Of a DNA stretch of 34,311 bases, positions 14,562 through 21,545 are shown in pieces (position 1 is the first letter of the stretch; each line of letters opens with the position of its first letter). The stretch comes from Candidatus Peribacteria bacterium. GTDB lineage: Bacteria > Patescibacteriota > Gracilibacteria > Peribacterales > Peribacteraceae. The notes under the pieces are model-generated. The model made no database searches and had not been told where the DNA came from. It was given only the letters and a program-made list of their open reading frames with translations. A program made the translations under genes and the position numbers. Location: NCBI GenBank assembly GCA_016866875.1, contig VGKY01000008.1, forward strand, positions 1-34,311. The letters are read 5' to 3'.

Positions 14562-15985
14562 TCCTCTTCTCCTTCATGATCGGCTTTGCTCCGCTATGGA
14601 TCATCGGCGTGCTCGCCGTACGCGCGATGCAGGGATCCTCGCCGGTTCTCACGCGCAGCGAGTGTGCCGTCTACGGCGCCATCGTCGGTCCCACACTCGT
14701 CATGACCATCCTCTTCTTGCTGGCATGGGCCGGCATGCCGATCAATGCCACCGGAGGGGCAACCGCTCTCTCCATCGCCGGTATTCCCCTCCTCTGGTTA
14801 GTCCGCAAGCACTTGGGATCCTTGCAAATCAAACAATCTCTGGAGCGTTTGAAGGGCATGATCGCTGCGTCGCGCCCGACTGTGCGCTGGAACTCCGAAA
14901 CTCTGCTCCGTGCAATCCTGGGAATATGGATCCTCGCCAAGCTTTCCGCCGGCTCCTCTCTGCTCCTTCACGACCCCGCCTACAACGATGATGTGTTCAA
15001 CAACTGGAACTACCGCGCGAAGATCCTGCAAAACGAGCAACGCCTCACACTCGAGTTTCCCTATAATCCCGGCGTTCCTGCGGGAGTCGCCGCGTACCCG
15101 CCAACCGTTCCCCTCATCCGAGCGTGGATCGCCATCGCCGCGGGAGGGTGGAACGACGACGTGATCGGCCTCATCGCCCCCTTGTCGTACCTGCTCGCAC
15201 TCGCGATCATCTTCCTCGCCATCCGTCGGGAAGCCGAGGGAACCTGGGCACTCCTCGGCCTGTACATCGCCTCGAGTCTCCCCCTCTCCCTGCTCCATGG
15301 CATCACTCCGTACGCTGATCTCTTCGTAGCACTCCATATCGCCGCAGCTCTCCTCCCCATCTTCCACGCACTACGATCTACCGACGTAGCCTCAAGAACT
15401 GCGTGGTTGCGCGTAGGGGCATTGTCCGCCGCACTGCTGCCCATGACGAAGAACGAGGCCCTGCTCATGCACCTGCCGATTATATTCGTTCTCGCCGCCG
15501 GAGCTATAGCGCACTGCGCCCACAAGCGATCGCTTTCCGGGCATCAGGCGCTGCGCGCAGCGCTTTGGTATGCAACGCTGACACTGGCGGTGCTCCTCCC
15601 GTGGCTCCTCTACAAGTACAGCAACGGACTCGCCTTCGGTAATGCGAAGCCCATCGATACCGCACTCGCCTGGCAGGAGGGCGCTTTGCGCGCGCTCTTC
15701 ATCACCTGGGTCCTCGAGACAAACTTCCTCCTCCTGCCCGGCTTGCTCGGCGCGCTGCTGCTTGTGCGCCAGCGTGCAGCCTTCGGCACACCGCTTCTGG
15801 TCCTGAGCCTGTTTGTCCTGGGCATCATCGCGGAGCTCATTGGCATTTTCTCCTTCACAGGCCTCTCTGCAGAAGCCCTGCGCCAGACCGGCTCCGCCCG
15901 TGGCATCATCCAGATCGTCCCCATCATGGTGATCTTGGCAACGCTTCTGCTGCGAGACTGGTGGAATGCTGTGCGTTCTTCGTGA
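14558..15985 (+). CDS. Polytopic membrane protein, GT-C glycosyltransferase-like
   Basis: 475-residue protein with about ten or more membrane helices throughout. After the third helix an extracytoplasmic loop contains DPAYNDDVFNNW (about 140-151), an acidic motif placed like the catalytic Asp of GT-C enzymes (RgtA-D/PMT-like), which move sugars from polyprenyl phosphates. TKNEALLMHLP (about 300) is a second motif seen in such proteins. I therefore call it GT-C-like; a flippase or polymerase is the main alternative. It starts inside the previous gene's stop. Its 3' end is followed by a heptamer repeat tract and then the methyltransferase. Confidence 0.68.
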   Translation: MILFSFMIGFAPLWIIGVLAVRAMQGSSPVLTRSECAVYGAIVGPTLVMTILFLLAWAGMPINATGGATALSIAGIPLLWLVRKHLGSLQIKQSLERLKGMIAASRPTVRWNSETLLRAILGIWILAKLSAGSSLLLHDPAYNDDVFNNWNYRAKILQNEQRLTLEFPYNPGVPAGVAAYPPTVPLIRAWIAIAAGGWNDDVIGLIAPLSYLLALAIIFLAIRREAEGTWALLGLYIASSLPLSLLHGITPYADLFVALHIAAALLPIFHALRSTDVASRTAWLRVGALSAALLPMTKNEALLMHLPIIFVLAAGAIAHCAHKRSLSGHQALRAALWYATLTLAVLLPWLLYKYSNGLAFGNAKPIDTALAWQEGALRALFITWVLETNFLLLPGLLGALLLVRQRAAFGTPLLVLSLFVLGIIAELIGIFSFTGLSAEALRQTGSARGIIQIVPIMVILATLLLRDWWNAVRSS

Positions 15986-16005
15986 GGAACGGTACGCCTG
16001 CTACA

Positions 16006-16040
16006 TTTTCCATTCTCAATTCTCCATTTTCCATTATCCT
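16006..16040. repeat. Degenerate heptamer tandem repeat, five units
   Basis: Five consecutive 7-nt units resembling TTTTCCA (others TTCTCCA, TTCTCAA) end in TTATCCT. It lies between the GT-C-like gene and the methyltransferase, and its last unit contains the TATCCT that serves as a plausible -10 for the next gene. Confidence 0.75.
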
Positions 16041-16047
16041 GTCTCCC

Positions 16048-17301
16048 GTGCCTACCTACTGCGCATTTCTCGGACACCAGCCCAGCACAGGACTCGCGGA
16101 GCTCATCGCGGTCGTTCCCGGCTTTCGCATCGTTTCGCAGCCAGAGCCAACGATTGTCATTTTCTCTTCGGAGGAAAAGATCTCCGGAGACGTCCTCCGG
16201 TATCTCGGGGGTGTCTACGCACTGGCGGAGGGCTTTGAAGGCGATCTCTCCGTGAGCGACGGACCACAGTGCCTGCTGCAGTGCTCAGCGAAGATCCGTG
16301 GCAAAATCACCTTTGGCCTACGCACGTCGGGGATCCCTCCCACGGGCGTAAAGGAGATGTACCGCAGGTACAAGGACACACTGAAGCGTGCTGGGCGCCC
16401 GGCGCGCTACGTCGGCAACGAACGCAAGCCAGCGGCCACAGTACTCCTGCACGACGCCGGAATGCTCAGCGGCAAACACGGATTGGAGCTCACGATCGTT
16501 GCTCTTCCCGGTGAAGAGACCTGGATAGGACGCACCATTGCTGCTCAAGACGTCGACAGCTACACGAAGCGCGATATCGGCAAGCCCGTGCGCGACACGA
16601 CCGTCGGACTCCTGCCTCCGAAGCTCGCGCAGGTGATGCTGAATCTCGGACTGTGGCTCTTGCAGAGCACAAAGCCTTCGCCACAGATATCGTCCAGCTC
16701 AAAGCTGAACGCTAAGAGCTCAAAGCTTACGGTCCTCGATCCCTTCTGTGGCACCGGCGTGATCCCACTGGAGTGCCTCGCGCGCACATGGAACGTGCTC
16801 GCCTCCGACGTCAGTCTGAAAGCCGTCAACGGCTGCACGAAGAACATCGAGTGGTTCCGCAAAGAGTGGAAGATCCCGAAGAAAGACGCCGATAGCACGG
16901 TATGGAAGCAGGATGCCACGCAGCCCTTTGCCCTGAAAAAGCTCCCCGATCTCATCGTCACGGAGACGACGCTCGGACCGAGCCTCACGCGAGCTCCTTC
17001 TCTGGGGCCCGCAGAGAGGCTGCGCAAGCAGATGGAAAAACTAGAGGAATCCTTCCTCACAAATGCCGCAGCAACGCTCCCAGGAGTTCCCATCGTCTGC
17101 TGCTGGCCCTTCTGGCGTCTTGCGGGAGGGAATCTCGTCCGTCTGACGGGGCTCTGGGAAAAGCTTCCGAAGCTTGGCTACCGCGCGGTGATGCCTGCCA
17201 TCCCCAAGAGTAAAGAGGCAACGGACTTCTCGCTCCTCTACCGTAGAAACGATCAGTTTGTCGGCCGGGAGATCGTGATGTTGCGGCCAGTGAAGAGATA
17301 G
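16048..17301 (+). CDS. Trm11-like SAM-dependent methyltransferase
   Basis: 417-residue class I methyltransferase resembling the Trm11/UPF0020 RNA guanine methylase group. An N-terminal region (about 1-150) may hold a THUMP-like fold. DIGKPVRDTTVGLLPPKLAQVMLNL is the typical linker, and LDPFCGTGVIPLECL (about 232-246) is SAM motif I. The usual catalytic (D/N)PPY motif is not seen; the corresponding strand reads LIVTETTLGPSL. A heptamer repeat is inserted just before motif I (residues about 217-228, SSSKLNAKSSKL). GTG 16048 is chosen because TATCCT lies 7 nt upstream and conserved sequence begins there. RNA as substrate is inferred from family only. Confidence 0.78.
   Translation: MPTYCAFLGHQPSTGLAELIAVVPGFRIVSQPEPTIVIFSSEEKISGDVLRYLGGVYALAEGFEGDLSVSDGPQCLLQCSAKIRGKITFGLRTSGIPPTGVKEMYRRYKDTLKRAGRPARYVGNERKPAATVLLHDAGMLSGKHGLELTIVALPGEETWIGRTIAAQDVDSYTKRDIGKPVRDTTVGLLPPKLAQVMLNLGLWLLQSTKPSPQISSSSKLNAKSSKLTVLDPFCGTGVIPLECLARTWNVLASDVSLKAVNGCTKNIEWFRKEWKIPKKDADSTVWKQDATQPFALKKLPDLIVTETTLGPSLTRAPSLGPAERLRKQMEKLEESFLTNAAATLPGVPIVCCWPFWRLAGGNLVRLTGLWEKLPKLGYRAVMPAIPKSKEATDFSLLYRRNDQFVGREIVMLRPVKR
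16696..16730. repeat. Heptamer tandem repeat inside the Trm11-like gene
   Basis: Five 7-nt units (AGCTCAA, AGCTGAA and variants) lie in the coding region, translating to a Ser/Lys/Leu-rich stretch immediately before the SAM-binding motif. The reading frame is kept. Confidence 0.8.
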
Positions 17302-17324
17302 AAGCGCAAAGGAGGTAAAGGAAT

Positions 17325-17360
17325 GTCCTTTTAGTCTTTTTCGTCCTCTTCGTCCTTTCC
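17325..17360. repeat. Degenerate 9-nt tandem repeat, four units
   Basis: Four 9-nt units of the GTCCTCTTC type lie between the methyltransferase stop and the next gene. GTCCTCTTC itself is shared exactly with the tract at 12877-12921. Confidence 0.75.
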
Positions 17361-17375
17361 TGTACGATAATCTCC

Positions 17376-17918
17376 GTGCCACGTTTTCTCGCGCGCACGG
17401 CGATCGTCCTCTTCTGCCTCTGGCACATGAGTGCCGTCGCTGCGTTTGCCATCGACCGATCCTGGAACTTTGCCCCTTTTTCGGCATTCAAAGACCTCGT
17501 GGATCCCGTGACGCGCGGCTACGTCCTCATTACAAGCCAGTGGCAGCAGTGGAATCTCTTCTCCCCAGATCCCCTCCGTCGCATCTCGCAGTACCGCGTC
17601 GAGATCTCAGGAGGAAGCGGATGGCAGACGATCGCAAAGATCGGAGGTCCTGACGGAGACAAGCGACGTGCCGGCATGATGAAGGCGCTGCGCAGGATCG
17701 AGGATCGTAGAGCAGATGATCCACTGAATCAGCGCTTCCTCCATGTGCTGTGCCGCCGTGAGAGGATCGTTGGGGGAATCTCCATCCGCCTCGTGCGGCG
17801 CTTTGCCGTCCTGCCAAAACCCCAGCATCCGCTCAGCGTCGAGGAATGGCGCTCGTACGCTCCGTCCTGGTCGGAGGATACGCTGTTCACAGCATCCTGC
17901 CCCCCGCTTGCACTATGA
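17376..17918 (+). CDS. Small membrane-anchored partner of the HTTM protein
   Basis: 180-residue protein with one N-terminal membrane helix (about 6-27), then WNLFSPDP (about 60) and a soluble Arg-rich remainder. I recognise no named domain, but short proteins of this shape, with a W-x-x-FSP motif, often precede HTTM-domain genes. Here its TGA overlaps the HTTM ATG by 4 nt, which supports a joint complex. The start is GTG, with TACGAT 7 nt upstream. Some HTTM systems in bacteria are linked to vitamin K-dependent-carboxylase-like chemistry; I see no direct evidence for that here. Confidence 0.7.
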   Translation: MPRFLARTAIVLFCLWHMSAVAAFAIDRSWNFAPFSAFKDLVDPVTRGYVLITSQWQQWNLFSPDPLRRISQYRVEISGGSGWQTIAKIGGPDGDKRRAGMMKALRRIEDRRADDPLNQRFLHVLCRRERIVGGISIRLVRRFAVLPKPQHPLSVEEWRSYAPSWSEDTLFTASCPPLAL

Positions 17919-19276
17919 ATCTCCTGCCCGCCATCGACGGCTTCTTCTTCCGTCGCATCTCCGCATCGGGCTTCGGGCTCATGCGCATGGCATGGGCCGC
18001 CACCGCTCTTGCCTACCTCCTGCCGCAGTGGAGGGACATCACACTGCTCTATAGCGACGCAGGGATGATCCCACACACACTCTCGGCAGTTGCCTACCGC
18101 AACGAGTACCGCTTCTCACTGCTCGATACCTACACGCATCCCGCCGCAGTGTACGGGCTCTTCCTGCTGCTCCTCACCATGCTCTTCTGCGCGATGATCG
18201 GTTGGCGCACCCGCTTCTCCACCGTCGTCGCCGCGCTCCTGCTCTTCTCCTTCCATGAAGCAAACTTGTTGCCACTGGGGGGCGGGGACACGGTGCTTCG
18301 CAACCTCGGATTCCTGCTCATGATCGCTCCGCAGATCCGCGCGTTCTCCCTCGATCGCGCACGGGAGCAGTGGCGACAGTGGGAGACCGACCGTACATTC
18401 CTCCGTCCGCTCACCATGTCGATCTGGCCATGGAGGCTCCTGGTCTGGCAGTTCATCGTCATCTACATCGCTTCGGGCATCGACAAAGCAACGGGGACGA
18501 TGTGGTGGAATGGAACAGCGGTTGCTTCCGCACTGCACCATGGGCATTTCGCGCGCTGGCCGATGCCGGTGATGGACATCGTCAGCAGGGCATCAGGCCT
18601 CGTCTGTGCTGCCGTACTCGTCTTTGAGTTTGGATGGCTCCTGATGCTCATGCCCAATCGCTTTGCCATGCGAGTGCAAGAGTACATACACCCCCATGCG
18701 ATCCGGCGTGCGCTCCTCCTGAGCGGTGTCCTCTTCCATAGCAGCATCTTCGCGCTCATGGACGTAGGATCCTTTTCCGTCGCTATGCTCGCGGGCTACC
18801 TCGGTCTACTCCTCCAGGAAGATTTTCGAGATATGCAGAAGTGGGTGAAGGGAATAAGGGGAAAGCGAAGAGCAGGATGGCGCATCGTCGTGCTCTACGA
18901 TGCAGCGTGCCACCTCTGTCGTCGCTCGATGTTCACGCTGCTGCTCTGTGATCATCTACAGCGGCTGCAGGCCGTGAACTTCCGTGATAGGGCACTGCGA
19001 AAGCAATACGCTCCGGATATTGCCCTCCAAGACCTCGACCGCTCCATGCATATCAAGATACAAGCTGAAAGCTGTCAGCTGTCAGCTGTCAGCTTCCATG
19101 GCTTCGATGCCTTCAGAAAGCTGGCTTGGCACATCCCCATCCTCTGGCCCCTCGCTCCCCTTCTCTATATTCCAGGCATACCCCCGCTCGGTCGCACGAT
19201 GTACGCCCATATCGCAAAGAACCGTAACCGCTGCGCGGACGGATACTGCGTGCATGATAGTACGGCAAATCGCTGA
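17915..19276 (+). CDS. HTTM membrane protein fused to a DCC thiol-oxidoreductase domain
   Basis: 453-residue fusion. Residues 1 to about 310 hold about seven membrane helices and match the HTTM domain (related to vitamin K-dependent gamma-carboxylase), for example WRLLVWQFIVIYIASGIDKA and WNGTAVASALHHGHFARWP. Residues about 320-453 form a DCC (DUF393) domain: VLYDAACHLCRRS, with the DxxCxxC redox motif, and the closing LAWHIPILWPLAPLLYIPG and IAKNRNRC. A heptamer repeat adds IQAESCQLSAVSFHG within the DCC domain, between its conserved blocks. ATG 17915 forms an ATGA overlap with the preceding gene. A redox or carboxylase-like membrane reaction is likely; the substrate is unknown. Confidence 0.85.
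   Translation: MNLLPAIDGFFFRRISASGFGLMRMAWAATALAYLLPQWRDITLLYSDAGMIPHTLSAVAYRNEYRFSLLDTYTHPAAVYGLFLLLLTMLFCAMIGWRTRFSTVVAALLLFSFHEANLLPLGGGDTVLRNLGFLLMIAPQIRAFSLDRAREQWRQWETDRTFLRPLTMSIWPWRLLVWQFIVIYIASGIDKATGTMWWNGTAVASALHHGHFARWPMPVMDIVSRASGLVCAAVLVFEFGWLLMLMPNRFAMRVQEYIHPHAIRRALLLSGVLFHSSIFALMDVGSFSVAMLAGYLGLLLQEDFRDMQKWVKGIRGKRRAGWRIVVLYDAACHLCRRSMFTLLLCDHLQRLQAVNFRDRALRKQYAPDIALQDLDRSMHIKIQAESCQLSAVSFHGFDAFRKLAWHIPILWPLAPLLYIPGIPPLGRTMYAHIAKNRNRCADGYCVHDSTANR
19063..19097. repeat. Heptamer tandem repeat inside the DCC domain
   Basis: Five 7-nt units, three of them identical AGCTGTC, flanked by AGCTGAA and AGCTTCC. This is the most homogeneous tract in the window, so probably the youngest. 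It stays in frame. Confidence 0.85.
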
Positions 19277-19331: not shown

Positions 19332-19406
19332 TCCCCTGTAGCTCAATGGTAGAGCACCTCGCTGTTAACGAGGGGGTTACTGGTTCGAGTCCAGTCGGGG
19401 GAGCCA
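19332..19406 (+). tRNA. tRNA-Asn (GTT), CCA encoded
   Basis: A complete cloverleaf is visible: acceptor TCCCCTG pairs with CGGGGGA; D-arm GCTC/GAGC with GG in the loop; anticodon stem CCTCG/CGAGG with loop CTGTTAA (anticodon GTT at 19364-19366); T-arm ACTGG-TTCGAGT-CCAGT. The discriminator is G and CCA is encoded. The GGGGAGCCAA at its 3' end recurs at 20960-20969 and 21536-21545. Confidence 0.97.
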
Positions 19407-19425
19407 ACTAAATTCTAGAACCTGG

Positions 19426-19431
19426 TAAAAT
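19426..19431 (+). promoter_or_regulatory. -10 element of the 19439 gene
   Basis: TAAAAT lies 7 nt before the ATG at 19439, again a leaderless arrangement. No clear -35, as the tRNA end lies there; read-through from the tRNA promoter is possible. Confidence 0.4.
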
Positions 19432-19438
19432 AAAAAAT

Positions 19439-19840
19439 ATGACTCGGCTATTTTTGGCACCACGCAGTAACGAAACAAGTAGGGCACACTTTTTGGCTAC
19501 CCTGGAAAGTGGGTATCCAATCAAGGATGTTGAGCAATTTTTGACAGAAGGAGAACGGAATTTGTTTAGCGAGAAAAAGAGTTTATACATATGGGGTAAC
19601 CAAAAAGCTAAAAAGGGGTCGTGGAACAAAATGAACATAGGAGATTTTGTTGCCTTTTATGCAAAAGGAGAATTGGTTTACGTGGGGAAGTGTATTCTTA
19701 AAAAGCACTCGGCAGAACTTGCGAGGCAATTGTGGGGTAATGATCCTAAGAAAAAAGATCAAAATGCGACGTGGGAATACACATTTTTCCTCAGTTTAAA
19801 GCCTCAACCTCGACTTTTCTATCTCCTTAGACATATTTGA
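19439..19840 (+). pseudogene. N-terminal fragment of a modification-dependent restriction-type protein
   Basis: 133-residue frame resembling the EVE/PUA-like N-terminal domain found on HNH or McrB-type restriction proteins. FLAPRSNETSRAHFLATL, the run W-x-x-M-x-x-GDFVAFYAKGE, then LARQLWGNDPK and TWEYTFFLSL follow the expected order. In those proteins this domain recognises modified bases or sets specificity and is followed by a nuclease or ATPase. Here the frame stops a few residues after the domain, and no nuclease is found downstream, so it is probably truncated. It could also be a free-standing small EVE-like protein. Its stop overlaps the -35 of the next gene. Base composition is clearly AT-richer than in the neighbours. 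Confidence 0.55.
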
Positions 19841-19865
19841 CATATTATGTATATAAGTGTATAAT
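19837..19865 (+). promoter_or_regulatory. Perfect consensus sigma70 promoter
   Basis: TTGACA (19837-19842), exactly 17 nt, TATAAT (19860-19865). Both hexamers match consensus at all positions. The predicted start is near 19872, giving a leader of about 24 nt before the ATG at 19896. It is by far the strongest promoter in the window. Confidence 0.9.
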
Positions 19866-19895
19866 ATATTTGAATTATTTTATTCCAAACTTTTT

Positions 19896-20345
19896 ATGTT
19901 TCGCTCACTCGAAGGAATTAATGTCAAGGATGGAACAGATGATGAAGCAGTAAAGCTAAGAAAATATTTCGAGACTCTGGATCCGCAGCAGCAATTTGCA
20001 GATGTCATAGCCGCAGCCAGAAACGCAAAATTCCAGCAAGGAACCACTCAGCCTCTTGGCGAACGCCTTGTGTACTTTAGAGATGAACCAAACATCGAAT
20101 CCACCCTCAAAATAGATTCGCAAGGGTCTCAAGTGATAATTTCTGCAAAACCTGATGCCGTATCCTTTGTACTGAATGGCGAACCAGTGATCATCAAAGA
20201 TCGAGGTGTGAGATCTGCCATGAATCAAATGCTACAGAATGTCGGTGTCGATTTTGAAGCCTTAGCTGCAAGCCAGGTTCAGGAAAGAGTCCATTCTGAG
20301 GTAGCAGAGAGGCAAGCACAGATACAGTCATTGCTTACAATGTAA
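19896..20345 (+). CDS. Unknown 149-residue protein
   Basis: I do not recognise this protein. It has no membrane segment or signal peptide; the middle (about 55-105) is beta-strand-like and includes KPDAVSFVLNGEPVIIKD, and the last 40 residues are helical and Gln/Glu-rich (VQERVHSEVAERQAQIQSLL). ATG 19896 is chosen over an earlier in-frame ATG (19857) that lies within the promoter. It is AT-richer than the flanking core genes and sits behind a perfect consensus promoter, as expected for a constitutively expressed accessory gene. Confidence 0.65.
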   Translation: MFRSLEGINVKDGTDDEAVKLRKYFETLDPQQQFADVIAAARNAKFQQGTTQPLGERLVYFRDEPNIESTLKIDSQGSQVIISAKPDAVSFVLNGEPVIIKDRGVRSAMNQMLQNVGVDFEALAASQVQERVHSEVAERQAQIQSLLTM

Positions 20346-20420
20346 CGATCCAGCCCTTCCTTCTATCGAAGAAATGCACCGCCCACGCTTCCTAAGCTTG
20401 TCGTAGAGCCAGCTGAATAG

Positions 20421-20457
20421 TATGTGGTATGTCGTATGTGGTATGTAGTATGCGGTA
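20421..20457. repeat. Degenerate heptamer tandem repeat, five units
   Basis: Five units of TATGTGG and variants (TATGTCG, TATGTAG, TATGCGG) in an intergenic position. Confidence 0.85.
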
Positions 20458-20484
20458 AGAAAAAAATGTGAGCTGTGTGTATTC

Positions 20485-20512
20485 TTACTACTTACTTCTT
20501 ACTACTTACTTT
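20485..20512. repeat. Degenerate heptamer tandem repeat, four units
   Basis: Four units of TTACTAC and TTACTTC alternating. The tract runs into the 3' end of the DedA-like fragment. Confidence 0.85.
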
Positions 20513-20789
20513 CCCTTCCCCAGTTCACCGCCTCGCCTTTCCGTCGCTTCCAGTAGAACCAACCAAGGACGAGTAGTACACAAAAAACAATCGTAAGCTT
20601 CAGTACCGTCTCGGCGGTATCGATGCCCGACATGAGTGAACTTGCGGCACCAAGACCTTCGAAGCCGAGGAGAATGAAGAAGAGGTTTCGAATGAAGAAT
20701 CCGACGTACGTGGAAAGGATGAATGTCTTCAGATCGATCTTCAGGATGCCGCAGATCACAAATATGTCAGGAAATCCGAAGGAGCTGAT
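20502..20789 (-). pseudogene. 3' fragment of a SNARE-associated/VTT (DedA-like) membrane protein
   Basis: The open frame has about 95 codons and resembles only the C-terminal part of VTT-domain proteins: SSFGFPDIFVICGILKIDL, two hydrophobic helices and a basic tail (WKRRKGE). A stop codon (TAA, 20790-20792 complement) cuts it off upstream, and no matching N-terminal sequence is found in any frame beyond. A GTG at 20759 could start an 85-residue product, but conserved sequence continues upstream of it. I read it as a remnant. Confidence 0.6.
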
Positions 20790-20792
20790 TTA

Positions 20793-20868
20793 CCCTGTTG
20801 CTCCAGAGTTCTCGGCAGAAGTGAACGCCCTGCATCGCTACTGGAACAAGGGCCGCTTTGATCGGTAA
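20793..20868 (+). pseudogene. Possible 3' end of an unidentified gene
   Basis: The plus-strand frame ending at TAA 20866-20868 reads VAPEFSAEVNALHRYWNKGR and on to the stop, with protein-like codon use, and is back to back with the DedA-like fragment. Upstream the frame runs antisense through that fragment, so only this short end looks genuine. I cannot name the parent gene. Confidence 0.3.
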
Positions 20869-20938
20869 AGACTGTTAAGCCATCCCTAGCTTCAGCATTC
20901 CGAGTGGCAGTTGTTTCAACATGCTATAAATCTCCGCC

Positions 20939-20969
20939 AGTTCTAGAAACAACCAAAATGGGGAGCCAA
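20939..20969. repeat. Direct repeat DR1, left flank of the MOSC gene
   Basis: 31-bp sequence that begins AGTTCTAGAAACA and ends AATGGGGAGCCAA; it matches DR2 (21515-21545) at 29 of 31 positions. The last 10 bases equal the 3' end of tRNA-Asn plus one base. The two copies enclose the MOSC gene and its promoter. Confidence 0.9.
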
Positions 20970-20971
20970 AC

Positions 20972-20999
20972 TTGACTTATATAAAAAATAATCTAAAAT
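20972..20999 (+). promoter_or_regulatory. Promoter of the MOSC gene
   Basis: TTGACT (20972-20977), a 16-nt spacer and TAAAAT (20994-20999), then 7 nt to the ATG at 21007. It starts 3 nt after the end of DR1. Confidence 0.65.
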
Positions 21000-21006
21000 T
21001 TCTTTT

Positions 21007-21498
21007 ATGAGTGAGTCTCTGAAAATTCTGGAAATTCAGACAGCAGCAGATAAAGGTCTGCCCATGCAATCCCTCGAGCATGTAAAAATTGTAGGCAGTG
21101 GAATTGAGGGCGACCGATATGCATCTGGCAAAGGAGCATTTTCGAAATCTCCGCCTCCGAGAAATATCGATAGACACATCACTCTCATTCAGAGCGAAAT
21201 GATCGAAGCCGTGAATGCGGAAAAAGGCATTAGTATCACGTTTGCGGATACCAGACGGAATCTTCTGACCATTGGTATTCAGCTGAATGATTTGGTTGGC
21301 AAGAAATTTCAGATCGGCGAGGTACTTGTCGAAGGTGTGGAACTCTGCGAACCATGTGGAAGACCGGGCACTCTTTCGACCAATGCAGATGTAAAGCAGC
21401 ATTTTAAAGACGCTTTTGTAGGTCGCGGCGGACTACGCGTGAGAGTTCTTGACACAGGTGAAATTCATCAGGGCGATGAAATCAAGCTTGTGGAGTAA
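21007..21498 (+). CDS. MOSC domain protein
   Basis: 163-residue stand-alone MOSC (Moco sulfurase C-terminal) domain, a sulfur-carrier fold used in molybdenum-cofactor-related and other thiol chemistry. GIEGDRYASGKG (about 34-45), RRNLLTIGIQLNDLVGKKF (about 79-97), VELCEPCGRPG with the conserved cysteines (about 117-127), and GRGGLRVRVLDTG (about 140-152) are all present, so it looks functional. It sits alone between two 31-bp direct repeats with its own promoter, like a single-gene cassette. No molybdenum cofactor gene is in the window. Confidence 0.88.
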   Translation: MSESLKILEIQTAADKGLPMQSLEHVKIVGSGIEGDRYASGKGAFSKSPPPRNIDRHITLIQSEMIEAVNAEKGISITFADTRRNLLTIGIQLNDLVGKKFQIGEVLVEGVELCEPCGRPGTLSTNADVKQHFKDAFVGRGGLRVRVLDTGEIHQGDEIKLVE

Positions 21499-21514
21499 GT
21501 GATAGACAGTAGAC

Positions 21515-21545
21515 AGTTCTAGAAACAGCCACAATGGGGAGCCAA
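21515..21545. repeat. Direct repeat DR2, right flank of the MOSC gene
   Basis: 31-bp copy of DR1 with two substitutions. It follows a TAGACAG heptamer doublet (21503-21516) and ends exactly where the stop codon of a minus-strand gene tail begins (21546-21548). Confidence 0.9.

Follow-up and report, generated by a model that had tools for sequence, protein, structure and literature searches.

The MOSC-domain gene in the 34,311-nt stretch of DNA analysed here (the window) is probably carried on a recombinase-less, one-gene integrated cassette, part of an array that is anchored on a tRNA-Asn gene and whose sites, judged from their sequences, appear to be of the phage-type large serine recombinase (LSR) kind. 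We propose that LSRs encoded by related elements join an attP-type site to the tRNA-Asn 3' end, which would act as the attB side. Every insertion would spare the tRNA, and the distal end of the insert would carry the 30-bp repeat, composed of the element's attP half-site and the tRNA-derived core GGAGCCA. Repeated insertion beside the tRNA would then stack units with repeats in between, and cassettes that lack a recombinase would have been moved in trans.

Two 32-nt direct repeats lie at positions 20938-20969 and 21514-21545 of the window; they are identical at 30 of 32 positions (94%), 576 bp apart from start to start, and are the only two copies of the repeat pattern in the window, where shuffles give an expectation of 0.00. 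Repeat and pattern searches thus confirmed the pair and the spacing given in the original prediction, as well as its enclosed content of one sigma-70-like promoter and one intact open reading frame. The predicted repeat length of 31 bp did not hold: alignment with other copies defines a conserved unit of 30 bp (AGTTCNGAAAACANCCAGNNTGGGGAGCCA, 20939-20968 and 21515-21544), with sharp borders, unconserved flanks and a right border at the exact tRNA end (CCA). The features that surround the pair, among them a tRNA-Asn gene and an extra unit between it and the first repeat (DR1) that had both been missed earlier, are as follows.

15961-19276, forward strand: conserved left flank, with an RNA methylase-like gene and ORFs at 17376 and 17846, common to same-genus relatives up to tRNA-Asn (tblastn)
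19332-19406, forward strand: tRNA-Asn (gtt; ARAGORN), proposed to anchor the array and to supply the attB-side site through its 3' end GGTTCGAGTCCAGTCGGGGGAGCCA
19407-20968, forward strand: first array unit, 1562 bp, 43% GC, reaching from the tRNA 3' terminus through DR1
20939-20968, forward strand: DR1, 30-bp site, core preceded by a putative attP-type half-site, with a GTTC-to-GGAGCCA distance of 18 nt
20969-21544, forward strand: second unit, the MOSC cassette, 576 bp
20972-20999, forward strand: cassette promoter matching the consensus, TTGACT (20972-20977), 16 nt, TAAAAT (20994-20999)
21007-21498, forward strand: MOSC-domain protein of 163 aa (PF03473, E=2.7e-13)
21515-21544, forward strand: DR2, 30-bp site closing the MOSC cassette, 16 nt past the MOSC stop codon
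22149-24233, reverse strand: conserved right flank, peptidase S51 and trypsin-like genes, lying beyond the variable island in two same-genus genomes (G001 and G002)

The tRNA-Asn gene lies on the same strand as the repeats, 1.5 kb upstream. The last ~7-10 nt of the repeat (GGGGAGCCA) are the tRNA-Asn 3' end, and the rest of the repeat is not derived from the tRNA. The MOSC start codon is only 7 nt past TAAAAT, so that the MOSC mRNA would be nearly leaderless. The GC content of MOSC (46%) and of the first unit (43%) is low against the 56-60% of the flanking genes, in keeping with acquisition. No match to MOSC was found in 58 relatives, and none of the relatives searched carries the gene at this place without the repeats; elsewhere in the phylum there is a single weak match (32% identity), in 1 other genome of 380. 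The ORFs of the first unit (133 and 162 aa) have no Pfam match and were not found in the relatives' loci tested. Positions 20420-20475, inside this unit, are a degenerate GTATGTGGTATGT microsatellite.

The interval between tRNA-Asn and the S51 and trypsin-like genes keeps its flanks and differs in content among the genome under study and the same-genus genomes G001 and G002. All three thus combine the features of an additive flexible island, namely variable content, conserved flanks at a tRNA and tRNA-derived repeats, and G002 also contains a displaced fragment of the tRNA-Asn 3' end. The earlier suggestion that precise repeat borders mark a cassette gained or lost as a unit is supported by these conserved flanks around varying content and by single genes that are bracketed in the same way elsewhere.

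Such genes turned up both in the same genome and in others when the repeat was sought next to single genes, as had been proposed. The genome under study (1.12 Mb, 36 contigs) holds two further copies, both on contig C12, which brings its total to four. These two copies enclose a second one-gene cassette (L022:7045-8065) that encodes 284 aa without a Pfam match and has a TTGACA box beginning 6 nt after the first copy; it lies 0.9 kb downstream of tRNA-Ile, with no tRNA-Asn near. A pattern scan of ~85,000 species genomes gave four matches, every one in a record whose title names Candidatus Peribacteria or Peregrinibacteria, and none was found in 2.9 million viral contigs. A profile built from 16 copies matched 43 of 74 same-family genomes, often in one-strand clusters, a count that includes weak partial matches, among them the tRNA-Asn gene itself. 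In whole-genome searches, a full repeat (E<=0.001) and tRNA-Asn shared one contig in 15 genomes, and the repeats were downstream and on the same strand in 15/15. Similarly, the fetched loci gave ~26 sense repeat hits downstream of tRNA-Asn, 0 antisense and 0 upstream, and a looser count of GGAGCCA gave 74 sense downstream versus 23 antisense. Around half of the loci with a repeat have no tRNA-Asn nearby on their contig, which counts against the proposed anchoring. Other left arms joined to the same core (L064:8341-8365; L114, reverse strand, near +103; L065, near +90) resemble short palindromic intergenic repeats, GCGAAGCACGG..GGGGGAGCCA.

In the Peribacteria-type relatives (Patescibacteria, very small bacteria that are uncultured), the units between repeats are short, mostly contain one gene and often begin with a promoter. 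The genome G096 has five units after tRNA-Asn and four identical 30-bp repeats, in the order tRNA-Asn, 93-aa gene, 203-aa gene, 590-aa gene, helicase operon and TspO gene. Several of the proteins encoded by cassettes gave no hit in Pfam. A TTGAC box within 14 nt after the site is present at 7 of 42 repeats and at 5 of 55 tRNA-type sites, versus 0.5% of random positions. In promoter-bearing units the ATG is mostly 33-42 nt past the core, a distance short enough to make the transcripts nearly leaderless. Units are shared across genera: a 595-aa relative of the 590-aa gene lies between two cores in a different genus (G060), with its ATG 41 nt after the first, and the cores precede the ATG by 39-41 nt in the two genomes. 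The helicase unit is common to G096 and G032 at 68% identity. We also observed a unit with an AbiEii-like nucleotidyltransferase (L020:4222-4722 and relatives) adjoining tRNA-Asn across many genera. Two further loci carry tandem tRNA-Asn 3' ends, enclosing a DNA methyltransferase-like gene and a nucleotidyltransferase in one (L117:4402-8961) and a 221-aa ORF in the other (L095, reverse strand 1297-2380).

LSR genes or their remnants, with confirmed domains, abut the tRNA-Asn 3' end in antisense orientation in the loci of at least 16 relatives, and these proteins fall into clearly different sequence groups. Their C-termini run into tRNA-Asn (..WLPRLDSNQRPWR). Residues of this kind (WLPRLDSNQRPWR-like) are encoded by the tRNA-Asn antisense strand in L101, L106, L112, L124, L126 and L128, so that integration would rewrite the end of the protein. 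In G049, the LSR reading frame passes through a copy of the 30-bp repeat (..WLPRLGVIRT), and in G091 an LSR element extends between tRNA-Asn and a site whose GTTC lies at -29, the same position as in the repeats. At L021:7558-9450 a repeat copy encodes the 3' end of a full-length serine recombinase, which neighbours a cation transporter gene and a type I restriction-modification system.

In serine integrases the outer half-site motif, bound by the zinc domain, lies 5 bp farther out in attP than in attB (PMC3783163), and the sites described here display the same offset. GTTC, the T-loop motif, precedes GGAGCCA by 13 nt in tRNA-Asn and by 18 nt in the repeats. The distribution is bimodal, with 56 cases at 13 nt (nearly all tRNA), 39 at 18 nt (repeats; this is no random sample, because the loci were partly picked for carrying the repeat) and at most 5 at any other spacing. 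The 18-nt spacing is fixed across three different left-arm sequences. We therefore read the repeats as putative attP half-sites plus core. The recombinase-less cassettes begin with their promoter and have no recognisable second (P') half-site, and in a rebuilt attP (G091, the one site tested with shuffles) the best dyad was not above shuffles. A conserved motif after tRNA-Asn, considered as a P' arm, was rejected because for the most part it consists of LSR gene 3' ends in antisense. LSRs located elsewhere in G096, G028, G021 and G002 were likewise rejected as array partners, as no P-type site lies beside them; the two LSRs of G096 are away from its array. No resolvase-type or serine recombinase gene was detected in the genome under study, next to a junction or elsewhere, and for this reason its array is probably immobile now. 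No excised circle and no empty site were seen.

How far the small cassettes still move is where the strongest rival differs. It holds that serial LSR islands accreted at tRNA-Asn and then lost their recombinase and most of their genes, leaving small, non-moving fossils like the cis-mobilizable elements (CIMEs). This may well be so, although we rate it at somewhat under an even chance; it overlaps with the preferred reading, which concerns the origin of the sites, so that the two estimates are not mutually exclusive. Accretion is documented for integrative and mobilizable elements (IMEs) and CIMEs (PMC5704250), in L060, L075, L094, L110 and L111 an LSR remnant adjoins tRNA-Asn or a site, and the displaced tRNA-Asn 3' fragment of G002 fits such a history. 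However, random deletion would not readily place -35 boxes 1-5 nt and ATG codons 33-42 nt past the core, with stop codons often 10-80 nt before the next site, in several successive units with identical sites. An identical unit start is also found in two genera.

A tyrosine recombinase, either a tRNA-type integrase or the host Xer, is an improbable maker of the junctions. Integrases of that type commonly target tRNA 3' ends (PMC5704250), divergent tyrosine recombinases lie downstream of tRNA-Asn in G060, G062, G076 and G079, and a Xer-like protein is kept in almost every genome. These four cases compare with at least 16 LSRs or remnants that directly abut the tRNA, G096 and G028 have only the general Xer-like copy, away from their arrays, and the 5-bp attB/attP offset is a signature of serine integrases. 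It is very improbable that the repeats are RNA or regulatory elements (terminators or tRNA-like 3' ends) flanking genes for their expression: they do sit just before promoters and after stop codons and end in CCA, but they are confined to the neighbourhood and strand of tRNA-Asn far beyond what holds for genes in general, they overlap LSR genes, and there are only four copies in this genome. Least probable of all is an integron cassette served by an IntI and bearing an unusual attC. The one-gene units, the single orientation of sites and the one anchored end agree with it, which is the part of the integron likeness in the original prediction that stands; beyond the layout the likeness fails, with a 30-bp site that terminates in the tRNA-Asn 3' end, has no attC-like arms and has no linked integron integrase. 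LSRs acting at tRNA-Asn remain, in our assessment, the probable makers of the junctions; the movement of the cassettes, the insertion order and the mobilisation in trans of those without a recombinase are likewise inferred.

Few routes by which Patescibacteria gain genes are known, and their genomes are very small. One-gene cassettes in an array that is anchored on a tRNA and marked by serine recombinases would give them a route that is concrete and searchable and, if true, integron-like gene stacking would have arisen with a different enzyme. The signature GTTC-N18-GGAGCCA downstream of tRNA-Asn could serve as a genome-wide cassette marker and yield a list of recently acquired genes, and the natural pairs of tRNA and repeat sites are ready test substrates for new serine integrases. 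More speculatively, and in our estimate rather unlikely, Peribacteria may possess an LSR-based equivalent of the integron, in which dedicated, minimal cassettes, each carrying a promoter and a one-sided attP-type site, would be captured at tRNA-Asn by enzymes acting in trans and shuffled from species to species.

The attC sites of integrons are imperfect palindromes of ~55-140 nt with RYYYAAC/GTTRRRY ends. No arms of this type are present on the 30-bp repeat, in agreement with the earlier remark that it is not an obvious attC, and its best match is a serine-integrase attP half-site followed by the tRNA-Asn 3' end. No tyrosine recombinase was found in the array regions of the genome under study, G096 and G028. 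The array shares with integron cassettes the one-gene units, the sites in one orientation and the anchoring of one end, whereas it has no attC and no IntI, and many units have their own promoter; it is integron-like in layout and is not an integron. By eye, the repeat is also unlike the 28-bp dif-like sites of pdif (XerCD) modules. Nothing direct was found in the literature on integrons of the CPR or on LSR cassette arrays.

Tycheposons are likewise tRNA-anchored cargo regions, but they use a tyrosine recombinase and span 4-200 kb (PMC10872708). In large serine integrase elements (A118/LI integrase; PMC3783163), too, the outer half-site motif of attP is shifted outward by 5 bp relative to attB, and Resolvase, Recombinase and zinc ribbon proteins likewise lie at the junction; here, in contrast, the tRNA 3' end is targeted and most units have no recombinase, and serine-recombinase IMEs are described as lying mostly in dispensable protein genes (PMC5704250). 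In the additive flexible genomic islands of Ca. Actinomarinales (PMC7771536) and Ca. Methylopumilus (PMC10872708), cassettes also gather at a tRNA and units are exchanged across genera. The repeat of those islands has been described as a partial copy of the tRNA (PMC7771536; PMC10872708), whereas most repeats here consist of a non-tRNA left arm and the tRNA 3' terminus only, a unit is often just one gene with its own promoter, and the tRNA is abutted by LSRs. CIMEs and tandem ICE/IME accretions (PMC5704250) are similarly recombinase-less, att-flanked and stacked in one target gene, although the units here are much smaller, often a single gene, and those catalogued carry no transfer genes. CIME accretion (PMC5704250) is the closest described mechanism, and the array is a new form of tRNA-anchored additive islands.
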